Translations under genes and position numbers: made by a program
In this document: positions 13,016-15,458 of the stretch, in pieces
How the letters are laid out: the number at the start of each line of letters is the position of its first letter
Numbering within the stretch: position 1 is the stretch's first letter
Notes under the pieces: generated by a model
Told to the model about the DNA's origin: nothing
Database searches by the model: none
Seen by the model: the letters and a program-made list of their open reading frames with translations, nothing else
Assembly: GCA_016302655.1 (NCBI GenBank)
Contig: JAEDNF010000010.1
Location: forward strand, 1 to 15,458
DNA from: Oscillospiraceae bacterium
GTDB taxonomy: Bacteria; Bacillota; Clostridia; Oscillospirales; Ruminococcaceae
Direction: 5' to 3'
DNA length: 15,458 bases

Positions 13016-13052
13016 CAGACTTTAAAAAAACTAAACATTTCATTAAAGGGGT

Positions 13053-13126
13053 TTGGGGCGAAGCCCCAAGCAAGGTCGCAGGGGCGGCAGCCCCCGATTA
13101 TTAAGCCCCTTCCCGAGGGGAAGGGG
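13053..13126. repeat. G/C-rich triple-hairpin intergenic element
   Basis: Three successive hairpins: TTGGGGC-GAA-GCCCCAA at 13053-13069, GGGGC-GGCA-GCCCC at 13081-13094, and a 9-bp stem CCCCTTCCC-GAG-GGGAAGGGG at 13106-13126. GGGGTTTGGGG-type runs stand on both sides (13048-13058 and about 13123-13139). The composition is far from the AT-rich flanks. It resembles dispersed intergenic repeats of clostridial genomes, but I cannot see other copies in this window. No coding potential is visible. Confidence 0.6.
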
Positions 13127-13152
13127 TTTGGGGAAGGGGTTAGAGAGTTTGT

Positions 13153-13351: not shown

Positions 13352-13427
13352 TGGGGTGTCGCCAAGTGGTAAGGCATCGGACTCTGACTCCGCCATTTCG
13401 AGGGTTCAAATCCTTCCACCCCAGCCA
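13352..13427 (+). tRNA. tRNA-Gln (anticodon CTG)
   Basis: The acceptor stem TGGGGTG (13352-13358) pairs with CACCCCA, and the discriminator G and a genome-encoded CCA end at 13427. The D arm is GCC-AAGTGGTAA-GGC (13361-13375). The anticodon loop CTCTGAC at 13382-13388 gives anticodon CTG (13384-13386), reading CAG. The T arm GAGGG-TTCAAAT-CCTTC is complete with one G-U pair. The overall sequence is close to bacterial glutamine tRNAs. It is a single gene, not a cluster. Confidence 0.95.
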
Positions 13428-13465
13428 TTGAAAAAAAGCACGCTTCGGCGTGCTTTTTTTCAATT
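13427..13465 (+). terminator. Terminator of tRNA-Gln
   Basis: A 17-bp perfect stem, ATTGAAAAAAAGCACGC (13427-13443) with its complement at 13448-13464, is closed by a TTCG tetraloop. The T7 run at 13454-13460 is part of the 3' arm. The matching A-run makes it symmetrical and possibly bidirectional. It begins at the last A of the tRNA's CCA. Confidence 0.92.
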
Positions 13466-13683
13466 ATATCCGTTCCTATCGGAACGGGTGATATACCTGT
13501 CGGTATGATATCTGCTTTGCAGATGATATATGCCTGCGGCATATGAAGGGAACGGATATTATATCATACTTGCAAAGCAAGTATATCATACGGCGTAGCC
13601 GTATATCATCACCGAAGGTGCATACTACTGCGGATTGATGATATACAACACTTTGTGTTGATGATATGCAATGCTTCGCATTG
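13466..13683. repeat. Tandem array of nine variable-stem hairpins with TGATAT/ATATCA linkers
   Basis: Nine short perfect stem-loops follow one another: 13470-13487, 13493-13506, 13510-13524, 13528-13544, 13566-13584, 13588-13604, 13610-13620, 13646-13660 and 13669-13683. Stems are 4-8 bp, loops 3-4 nt (TATC, TGTC, TTT, TGC, AAA, GTA, GAA, TTT, TTC), and every stem has a different sequence. The linkers are conserved: TGATAT between the first four, the reverse complement ATATCA(T) around the next three, then TGATGATAT/ATGATAT around the last two. An 11-bp outer inverted repeat (13466-13476 with 13549-13559) encloses the first four and competes with the first hairpin. Positions 13621-13640 look like a decayed unit. 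No open reading frame of interest is present. Function is unknown. Confidence 0.8.
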
Positions 13684-13687
13684 ATGA

Positions 13688-13729
13688 TTTGTGCAAACCA
13701 AAACACAAAATGGATACTACTTCCATTTT
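13688..13729 (+). other. Two hairpins closing the array region
   Basis: TTTGTG (13688-13693) pairs with CACAAA (13704-13709), and AAAATGGA (13707-13714) pairs with TCCATTTT (13722-13729). The stems overlap by three bases and exclude each other at their edge. The second, with its T-rich 3' arm, could act as a weak terminator before the promoter at 13795. Confidence 0.4.
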
Positions 13730-13932: not shown

Positions 13933-15458
13933 ATGACAAAGACAAAAGCGCGGCTGATTTCAGCCGGCATTGCGATACTGGTACTCGCGGCGGCTCTGTT
14001 TGTGCTGTTGCCGTCTGTACTGTCTACCACGGCAGGCGGGGCGGCATGGAGCGGTCTGCCTGCTGACGGGATTGAAACCGGCGCAGGCACGGAAAGCAAT
14101 CCATATCAGATAAAGACCGCGGAAGAGCTTGCTTTTATGGCAAGCAAGGTAAACGCGGGCGACACAAGCTACGCCTCGGCTTACTACCGGCTCACGACAG
14201 ACATCGTGCTGAACGAGAGCCTTGACGACAGGCCTAATGAGTGGACTGCTATCGGTACTTATTCAACCCACTTCACCGGCAAATTCAGCGGCGACGGCCA
14301 CACCGTATCGGGTATAGTTATAAATAAATCCGATGAAAATGATCAGGGTCTGTTCGGCTGGTCGGAAGGCACTATAATGAATGTCGGCGTGATAGACAGC
14401 AGTATCAGCGGCGGCAATAATGTCGGCGGCGTCTGCGGCAGAAACAGCGGCACAATCGAAAACTGCTACAGCACCGGAGATGTCAGCGGAACAGGCAATA
14501 ATGTCGGCGGCGTCTGCGGCTGGAACGACGGCACAATCAAAAACTGCTACAGCACCGGCGCAGTCAGCGCAGCAGGCAATTATGTCGGCGGCGTCTGCGG
14601 CGATAACTACAGCACAATCAAAAACTGCTACAGCACCGGCGCAGTAAGCGCAGCAGGATATGTCGGCGGCGTCTGCGGCAGGAACGAAGGCGGCACAATC
14701 ACAAGCTGCTACTACGATACCGATTTCTACACCGGAAACGCTATAGGCGATGCTCAGGGAACAGCTGATAATGTAATCGGCAAAACCACCGCCGACCTCT
14801 GCGGTTCTCTTGATGACTTAGGCTTTGATTCCGCAGTATGGACAGCGGGCAGCTTCACAATCGATCCGGAAGACGGCAAAAAAGCCACCGCTACACTCCC
14901 TCAGCTGAAAGTATTTGAAAACACAAGCGCACCAAAGACAACGCTTTCACTCTACAACTTCGGCACGGACGAAGCCCCCGACTGGGATACCTACACCGAA
15001 ATATCCACAGCCGAAGAGCTTCAGAACATAAACCTTAGCGGCAACTACGTCCTCACAGCCGACATCACCCTCACAGCACCCGCGACCGAGAGTGACAGCA
15101 ACTGGACTGCTATCGGTACTGAAGCAGCCCCCTTCACCGGCAAATTTGACGGTAACGGCCACACCATATCGGGTATAGTTATAAATAAATCCGGTGAAAA
15201 TGATCAGGGTCTGTTCGGCTACTCGAAAGGCACTATAATAAATGTCGGCGTGATAAATAGTGACATCACGGGCAAGTATAATGTCGGCGGCGTCTGCGGC
15301 AGGAACTACTACGGCACAATCACAAACTGCTACAGCACCGGCACAGTCAGCGGTTCAAGTTGGGTCGGCGGCGTCTGCGGCTATAACAACGGCGGCACAA
15401 TCAAAAACTGCTACAGCACCGGCGCAGTCAGCGGTTCAAGCTATGTCGGCGGCGTCTG
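13933..15458 (+). CDS. Secreted GLUG-repeat protein, 3' end outside window
   Basis: The frame is open from 13933 to the window end, giving 508 codons. The ATG has a strong GGAGG at 13920-13924. Residues 1-33 are a signal sequence: MTKTKARL, then the hydrophobic core ISAGIAILVLAAALFVLLP and a small-residue region. The mature protein has two blocks. Each starts with an AEEL segment and a TADI/TTDI strand, passes through WTAIGT-FTGKFxGxGHTxSGIVINKS and LFGxSxGTIxNVGVI, and ends in 27-residue GLUG units of the form VGGVCGxNxGTIxNCYSTGxVS. Block 1 has four units and block 2 at least three. GLUG repeats are expected to form a beta-helix and are found in bacterial surface or adhesin-like proteins. 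No anchor or catalytic domain is visible so far. Each unit holds two cysteines. GC is higher than in neighbouring genes, with heavy GGC/GTC/AGC use. Confidence 0.88.
   Translation, partial: MTKTKARLISAGIAILVLAAALFVLLPSVLSTTAGGAAWSGLPADGIETGAGTESNPYQIKTAEELAFMASKVNAGDTSYASAYYRLTTDIVLNESLDDRPNEWTAIGTYSTHFTGKFSGDGHTVSGIVINKSDENDQGLFGWSEGTIMNVGVIDSSISGGNNVGGVCGRNSGTIENCYSTGDVSGTGNNVGGVCGWNDGTIKNCYSTGAVSAAGNYVGGVCGDNYSTIKNCYSTGAVSAAGYVGGVCGRNEGGTITSCYYDTDFYTGNAIGDAQGTADNVIGKTTADLCGSLDDLGFDSAVWTAGSFTIDPEDGKKATATLPQLKVFENTSAPKTTLSLYNFGTDEAPDWDTYTEISTAEELQNINLSGNYVLTADITLTAPATESDSNWTAIGTEAAPFTGKFDGNGHTISGIVINKSGENDQGLFGYSKGTIINVGVINSDITGKYNVGGVCGRNYYGTITNCYSTGTVSGSSWVGGVCGYNNGGTIKNCYSTGAVSGSSYVGGV
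14242..14394 (+). repeat. 153-nt intragenic macro-repeat, copy 1
   Basis: This segment of the GLUG gene, from TGGACTGCT to GTCGGCGTGATA, recurs at 15103-15255 in the same frame with a constant offset of 861 nt. A hand count gives about 16 mismatches in 153 nt. It encodes the conserved WTAIGT-to-NVGVI region that introduces each set of GLUG units. Confidence 0.85.
14422..14739 (+). repeat. GLUG unit array, block 1
   Basis: The segment encoding VGGVCG starts at 14422, 14503, 14584 and 14662, i.e. periods of 81, 81 and 78 nt (27, 27 and 26 residues). The last unit diverges after SCYYDTDF into a non-repeat region with a conserved-looking ADLCG segment. Confidence 0.85.
15103..15255 (+). repeat. 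153-nt intragenic macro-repeat, copy 2
   Basis: The second copy of 14242-14394, opening the second block of the GLUG protein. The most divergent part is the short stretch after ATCGGTACT; the middle, ATAGTTATAAATAAATCC and onward, is nearly identical. Confidence 0.85.
15283..15458 (+). repeat. GLUG unit array, block 2 (cut by window end)
   Basis: VGGVCG-coding segments start at 15283, 15364 and 15445, exactly 81 nt apart. The array continues past the end of the window, so the total number of units is unknown. Confidence 0.85.

Follow-up and report, generated by a model that had tools for sequence, protein, structure and literature searches.

A nine-hairpin array behind a tRNA-Gln gene as the probable end region of a small Gut-1/IVP-class mobile element

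The nine-hairpin array in the 15,458-nt stretch of Oscillospiraceae DNA analysed here (the window) probably represents the non-coding end region of a small Gut-1/IVP-class mobile element, located behind tRNA-Gln. This reading builds on the observed family identity of the array, the inverted-pair anatomy of the elements, their linkage to tRNA and tmRNA genes and to genes for IVP (PF05635), the turnover at orthologous sites and the chimeric composition seen by alignment. The window carries the following features.

13352–13427, plus strand: tRNA-Gln (CTG), neighbour of the insertion (ARAGORN, Rfam tRNA)
13427–13464, plus strand: hp0, 17-bp terminator-like hairpin, ATTGAAAAAAAGCACGC..GCGTGCTTTTTTTCAAT (hairpin scan)
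13461–13554, plus strand: left half-array, Rfam Gut-1 match of 51.1 bits (cut-off 50)
13463–13476, plus strand: arm A, complement of both the 3' arm of hp1 and 13549–13562 (inverted-repeat scan)
13467–13490, plus strand: hp1 (hairpin scan)
13492–13507, plus strand: hp2, ATACCTGTCGGTAT, identical in L177 (alignment, hairpin scan)
13509–13525, plus strand: hp3 (hairpin scan)
13527–13545, plus strand: hp4 (hairpin scan)
13549–13562, plus strand: second copy of arm A' (GGAACGGATATTAT), element centre (inverted-repeat scan, arrangement in relatives)
13556–13630, minus strand: right half-array, Gut-1 match of 40.5 bits, below cut-off
13566–13604, plus strand: hp5 (13566–13584) and hp6 (13588–13604), as in the GATAT subfamily (alignment, hairpin scan)
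13605–13690, plus strand: apparent right-hand remains of another element (hp7–hp9), aligning with L184; junction approximate, set by alignment
13610–13620, plus strand: hp7 (hairpin scan)
13646–13660, plus strand: hp8 (hairpin scan)
13669–13683, plus strand: hp9 (hairpin scan)
13933–15456, plus strand: gene for a GLUG-motif protein, downstream of the array and open at the window end

A hairpin scan recovers the nine hairpins described in the first-pass annotation, between 13467 and 13683, and also lists a 4-bp palindrome at 13555–13565. The placement of the array behind a tRNA terminator holds as well: both the tRNA-Gln(CTG) gene and its terminator hairpin were found, and the T-run of hp0 (TTTTTTTCAAT) directly adjoins the array, a layout shared by relatives. 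Two other points of that annotation stand in part. The linker orientation does flip after hairpin 4, but it flips twice rather than once: TGATAT occurs at 13489, 13506 and 13524 (among hairpins 1–4), ATATCA at 13561, 13583 and 13603 (among hairpins 5–7), and TGATAT again at 13639 and 13662 (before hairpins 8 and 9). Likewise, an outer inverted repeat encloses hairpins 1–4, but it measures 14 nt (93% complementary) and not 11 bp. Hairpins 7 and 8 are separated by a stretch without a good hairpin (near 13621–13645). RNA folding of positions 13461–13690 gives −87.7 kcal/mol, whereas 200 shuffles average −57.4 (sd 4.36); z is −6.95, and no shuffle reaches that stability. Elsewhere in the window, a GGTTTGGGGCGAAGCCCCAAGC.. 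repeat at 13050–13140 resembles, by eye, stretches beside family-B elements in two genomes (G033, G035).

The first-pass annotation knew of no named family of such design, but cmscan matches the array to Rfam Gut-1 (RF01706). Judged by covariance-model score, the left half narrowly passes the gathering cut-off with an E-value of 8.8e-8, whereas the minus-strand half does not pass. Given this E-value and the stability of the fold relative to shuffles, the array is more than a chance arrangement. The Rfam model resembles the window array in consisting of three hairpins joined by UGAAAU-type linkers. Unlike the full elements, it spans one half only; hp0, the second A' copy, the inverted second half and linkers besides GAAAT all lie beyond it. 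Since the halves are inverted, no single strand carries the Gut-1 motif throughout. In the part of the 2010 paper available to us (PMC2864571), Gut-1 is a noncoding RNA candidate known from environmental (human gut) sequence only, whereas we find it in many genomes. Starting from relatives reached through the SpoIIE gene of the window (L001, whose best segment is 97% identical, plus eight more), second arrays were sought in related genomes, whose lack the first-pass annotation would have counted against itself, and they are present. Gut-1 matches were obtained in nine of the 71 genomes of the closest relative's genus, with up to 38 in one genome, and in 162 of the 394 genomes of its order (127 above the cut-off) in a search with strict filters, which lose weak matches.

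Loci of relatives, read individually, reveal the layout of a full element: hp0, followed by A-loop-A'-X-A'-X'. Here hp0 is either the tRNA-terminator hairpin or TTGAAATTTG..CAAATTTCAA; X consists of 7-nt linkers (GTGAAAT, GTGATAT, GTGAAGT and others) alternating with hairpins of free sequence, and X' is its reverse. Thus hp0 is followed by a linker, the A-loop-A' hairpin, two or three further hairpins with like linkers, in family A the second A', and the mirrored half. Linkers vary between elements (GTGAAAT, GTGATAT, GTGAAGT, GTGATGT) yet agree within one element. Among the loci examined, there are 30 distinct convergent half pairs, and in 29 of them both halves have a common linker core; five divergent pairs, not deduplicated, are also present. 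The outer repeat formed by arm A recurs in 16 of 19 elements. In a three-copy arm test, matches of at least 9 nt were found within all 19 elements, versus 121 of 342 comparisons between elements; the lower count of 16 reflects L015, L039 and L151, in which the best match differs from arm A. The stems themselves are free in sequence, with 78 different outer 5-mers in 169 stems of at least 5 bp. Nevertheless, 148 of 199 distinct inter-linker segments, picked by their linkers only, can pair into a stem of 4 bp or more, versus 1457 of 5910 (25%) after exchange of 3' halves among segments. This count is fairer than an earlier one of 203/245, because the latter was selected partly on stems. The suggestion that pairing is kept while stems change is thereby borne out; the paired changes might be products of hairpin-templated repair or of selection for pairing. 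As a separate observation, several canonical Gut-1 elements are followed by a conserved tail, GAGTTCGAATTCATACGCAAAACTGCCGAAAATATCTTTTTTGTAGCCCATAGACA and variants (L148, 1690–2300; L139, L140, L142, L146, L153, L154). Its reverse strand reads MGYKKDIFGSFAYEFELLHNR.. and holds no long frame; a short frame (MGYKKDIFGSF..) within the tail, beyond the right end, led nowhere.

Copies occupy the T-runs of tRNA and tmRNA terminators as well as other intergenic sites. Counting elements away from contig ends only, 11 of 18 in family A (gap between halves ≤35) begin 39–68 nt behind a tRNA 3' end, with no tRNA found beside the other seven; in family B, two of eight begin likewise, and beside the other six no tRNA was found. 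In total, a tRNA lies beside 13 of 26 such elements, versus 12 of 128 single half-arrays within 120 nt of a tRNA, a tally that includes right halves and copies elsewhere. Three further copies (L018, L105, L153) follow tmRNA. At L080 (G030:C22), a tandem unit contains a duplication of the tRNA-Leu 3' end (about 27 nt), the terminator and Gut-1. Orthologous sites differ in their occupants. Behind the same tRNA-Leu, genome G030 has a GAAAT element (L079) and G042 has GATAT elements (L106); the same tRNA-Arg is followed by differing elements in G030 (L086) and G035 (L123); and at one intergenic site with flanks 86.8 and 87.1% identical, L093 and L126 contain other linkers and other stems. Nearly unchanged orthologous arrays occur too (L081 and L122; L084 and L109). 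In G033, where ten loci were scanned, one 89-nt half is present in nine near-identical copies, five of them identical; no exact match above 16 nt is common to their upstream flanks, and most of the differences among copies fall in loops. The arrays thus behave as mobile DNA, since orthologous sites hold different arrays or none and near-identical copies are dispersed in one genome. We consider it very probable that Gut-1/IVP-class arrays are mobile elements, and among the options raised in the first-pass annotation, that of a mobile intergenic element is the preferred one.

The window copy itself looks like a chimera. In alignment, the stretch between 13461 and about 13605 corresponds to GATAT-subfamily elements located at other tRNAs (L177, L197, L120), the terminators being different; its hp2 is that of L177 and its hp3 is the same as in L177 except for the loop. 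Beyond about 13605, and as far as 13690, the aligning counterpart is instead L184, and the closest relative has an L184-class array behind the same tRNA-Gln (L001). In L002, which comprises an EamA-type gene and tRNA-Gln, a plain terminator and no array is visible. In the simplest history, the left part of an L184-class array would have been replaced by a GATAT element via a shared linker. Such a replacement accounts for the second linker flip and for the poor stretch near 13621–13645. More generally, parts appear to be exchanged among copies by recombination at shared linkers.

Near-identical dispersed copies and differently occupied or empty orthologous sites are both seen in MITE-like elements. 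REP/BIME elements and MITEs are short non-coding palindromic repeats present in many copies and in inverted pairs. A REP/BIME-like element moved by a Y1 (IS200/RAYT) transposase would likewise present hairpin pairs with short conserved flanks, and within the genus Y1 genes are found in eight of nine Gut-1 genomes versus 12 of 62 others (p = 9e-5). However, this association vanishes across the order (Y1 × Gut-1 counts 50/72/52/106, odds ratio 1.4, p = 0.17), ten Y1 loci contain at most four linkers per 300 nt where five Gut-1 loci score six, and Gut-1-type stems, unlike those of REP/BIME elements and MITEs, are unconserved in sequence. Mobilisation by Y1/RAYT was therefore rejected as highly improbable.

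A protein that accompanies the arrays is IVP, the Avd-like, four-helix-bundle 23S rRNA intervening-sequence protein of family PF05635, which is encoded at 11 distinct places in the loci originally collected for Gut-1 (84.7 bits in Pfam; sole match of solved structure, 2rld). Within the genus, PF05635 is found in seven of nine Gut-1 genomes versus 12 of 62 others, and in the order in 139 of 295 genomes (131 above the cut-off). In a set of 280 genomes (G072–G351, an assumed universe), 105 have both Gut-1 and PF05635, 17 Gut-1 only, 33 PF05635 only and 125 neither, giving an odds ratio of 23 (p = 4e-29, phylogeny being ignored); the 17 among 122 Gut-1 genomes without a PF05635 match are unfinished bins. 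We read a non-random sample of PF05635 loci, namely, 28 of 31 matches in 12 Gut-1 genomes, 12 from genus genomes without Gut-1 and the 30 best-scoring loci of the order, of which tblastn placed 67 out of 70. Hairpin-linker arrays lie upstream of IVP in 25 of the 67, and in 17 of these 25 a tRNA is within 500 nt; 42 of the 67 have a heptamer tract (lag-7 at least 0.8) or an inverted match of at least 10 nt. With cuts of four linkers, lag-7 of 0.8 and 10 nt inverted, chosen after viewing the loci, 62 of 67 adjoin Gut-1-type arrays or heptamer/inverted tracts, the exceptions being L181, L193, L196, L213 and L215. Among control genes, the corresponding counts are 0/159 for linkers, 0/159 for tRNA, 0/162 for lag-7 and 4/162 for inverted matches. 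A looser lag-7 cut of 0.68, which has no control, yields 64 of 67.

In many relatives, the order is array, promoter-like site, PF05635 gene and often a cargo gene. A promoter-like site (up to three mismatches, within 110 nt before IVP) is present in 20 of 25 array-bearing loci versus 110 of 500 shuffled sequences. In 19 of the 20, the −10 box is 24–41 nt before the IVP start, whereas the site of L180 is within the array; in L181, L187, L189, L192 and L198 a terminal TTGAAA serves as the −35 box. Because this site is between array and IVP, the array is probably outside the IVP message, which bears on the possibility that Gut-1 is an expressed structured RNA, either a small RNA or a cis-regulator in which arm A switches between hp1 and the outer helix as the regulatory step. 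We regard this as quite unlikely: the paired changes in the stems, the stable fold, whose minimum-energy form uses the outer helix, and the published view of Gut-1 as most likely a noncoding RNA (Weinberg 2010, PMC2864571, in the portion accessible) agree with it, but besides the position of the promoter-like site, the array follows a strong terminator hairpin, its halves are inverted, so that neither strand has the motif throughout, and mobile DNA agrees better with the copy number and turnover. Of 16 loci tried, 11 have a cargo frame that overlaps the stop of IVP. Nine cargo proteins were scanned, revealing two acetyltransferases, one DUF4357 protein (GIY-YIG below the cut-off) and one Exo_endo_phos protein, with no match above the cut-off for the other five. 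In L172–L174, L187, L189, L192, L193 and L227, varied small cargo genes overlap the IVP stop codon with their start, which recalls a cassette slot.

No PF05635 gene was found in the window: tblastn with IVP gave no match up to the window end at 15458. The window copy is at most an IVP-less relative. Nonetheless, its hp1–hp6 align with L197 and L177, whose arrays precede a PF05635 gene, and the end structure matches that of IVP-bearing relatives. We suppose that the array acts as DNA, at an element end, and not as a transcript, and that this end would be recognised through its linkers and hairpins, with IVP binding either of them and assisting mobilisation. That IVP helps to move the elements is a tentative proposal. 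Among the element contents, no enzyme with known DNA-breaking chemistry was found, and we know of no such chemistry for PF05635.

IVP also occurs with heptamer tracts. L226, in which hairpin-linker arrays (GCTAAAT) flank IVP on both sides, is a bridge between the hairpin and heptamer forms. Flanking direct repeats of 14, 19 and 23 bp are found in L228, L230 and L236, at tRNA-Leu 5' ends; these are three of the 23 heptamer-type loci examined and three of the seven lying before tRNA-Leu, and other direct repeats among the 23 fall inside tracts or far off. All three are of the heptamer type; no target duplication was seen at a Gut-1-type copy or in the window. The fliP-fliQ junction provides a further case of variable occupancy. 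Out of 30 genus loci, four have heptamer tracts (lag-7 0.79–0.96) and 26 do not (0.21–0.57); X-IVP-X' is present in G020, whereas G023 and G014 carry IVP-less tracts and G054 retains a remnant. The G023 bin may be mixed, because a second fliP contig is followed by an IVP element (L203). In a phylum-wide draw of 29 PF05635 loci, 14 were unplaced and 13 of the 15 placed pass the loose test; placement used a motif of our own making, which may pick another frame. All eight plasmid records read, of 25 with a PF05635 match, show a tract of 7-nt periodicity no farther than 200 nt away (lag-7 0.71–1.0, no control), and the plasmid tracts span Bacteroidota, Spirochaetota, Cyanobacteriota, Bacillota and Chloroflexota. 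In both phage-labelled gut contigs, ATATCAC or ATTTCAT linkers are visible by eye upstream of PF05635. The TAACTGA repeats of Beggiatoaceae, Cyanobacteria and Bacteroidetes are likewise intergenic direct heptamers; in the main text of PMC4679880, as far as it was available, they are suspected of horizontal spread with no mechanism evident, and S23, 23S rRNA and four helix have no match. We suggest that they are related to the heptamer-type IVP tracts.

This breadth also bears on whether the arrays are passive selfish repeats that spread and diversify by recombination and by replication slippage through hairpins, IVP being a passenger in the same hotspots. Copies without IVP are common (that of the window is one), the window chimera suggests exchange between shared linkers, and the loop-centred differences among the G033 copies are in line with it. 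Yet IVP is physically linked to tracts of many unrelated sequences, in other phyla as well, and we find the passenger scenario rather unlikely. On the mobile-element reading, PF05635 genes would mark previously unrecognised small mobile elements of several phyla, with inverted 7-nt-repeat ends (and, in gut Clostridia of this order, free-sequence hairpins between the repeats), in which Gut-1 is an element end and not an RNA gene, the Avd-like protein drives movement with a target duplication of variable length at tRNA genes, and cargo is carried along. This wider scheme is still slightly more tentative than a helping role of IVP.

A known parallel in gene content is the intervening sequence (IVS) of 23S rRNA, in which a PF05635-type (IVP/S23) gene is in an element with complementary ends; the accessible text of PMC4990558 describes IVSs as possibly mobile and of unclear origin. 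Instead of lying inside rRNA, our elements precede or follow tRNA genes or occupy other intergenic space, and their tracts are 7-nt repeats with or without hairpins; the window array, behind a tRNA gene, is not in an rRNA helix, where IVSs are located and from which RNase III excises them. The old guess of IVS mobility (PMC4990558, same extent) becomes testable, since members of this protein family also lie between inverted heptamer tracts, thrice with flanking direct repeats at tRNA-Leu. In a CRISPR survey (PMC10910872, from the part seen), a figure legend names the 23S rRNA IVP. In the open PMC literature, to which our search was confined (subscription papers, preprints and supplements being outside its scope), no link among Gut-1, PF05635 and heptamer tracts was found. 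The orphan Rfam motif Gut-1 thus gains a genomic identity tied to a protein family of unclear role outside diversity-generating retroelements (DGRs), and, if the proposal is true, what has been classed as an RNA without explanation may belong to a jumping DNA element. The same elements could account for hypervariable hairpin or heptamer arrays that otherwise resemble CRISPR-like or regulatory oddities.

PF05635 also resembles Avd, the accessory protein of DGRs (PMC10053308, in the section available). Dependence on a reverse transcriptase was rejected: RVT_1 is found in four of nine Gut-1 genomes versus 20 of the 62 remaining genomes in the genus, with no enrichment, which sets the present elements apart from DGRs. 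In four related genomes, reverse transcriptase matches (open frames of 406–409 aa) do share a contig with Gut-1 copies, at a distance of about 2–6 kb (G030:C22:5536, G042:C63:5461, G035:C105:13082, G033:C50:13125). In G041:C242 and G053:C16, a PF05635 match stands beside a reverse transcriptase match, and these two are probably true Avd genes of DGRs.
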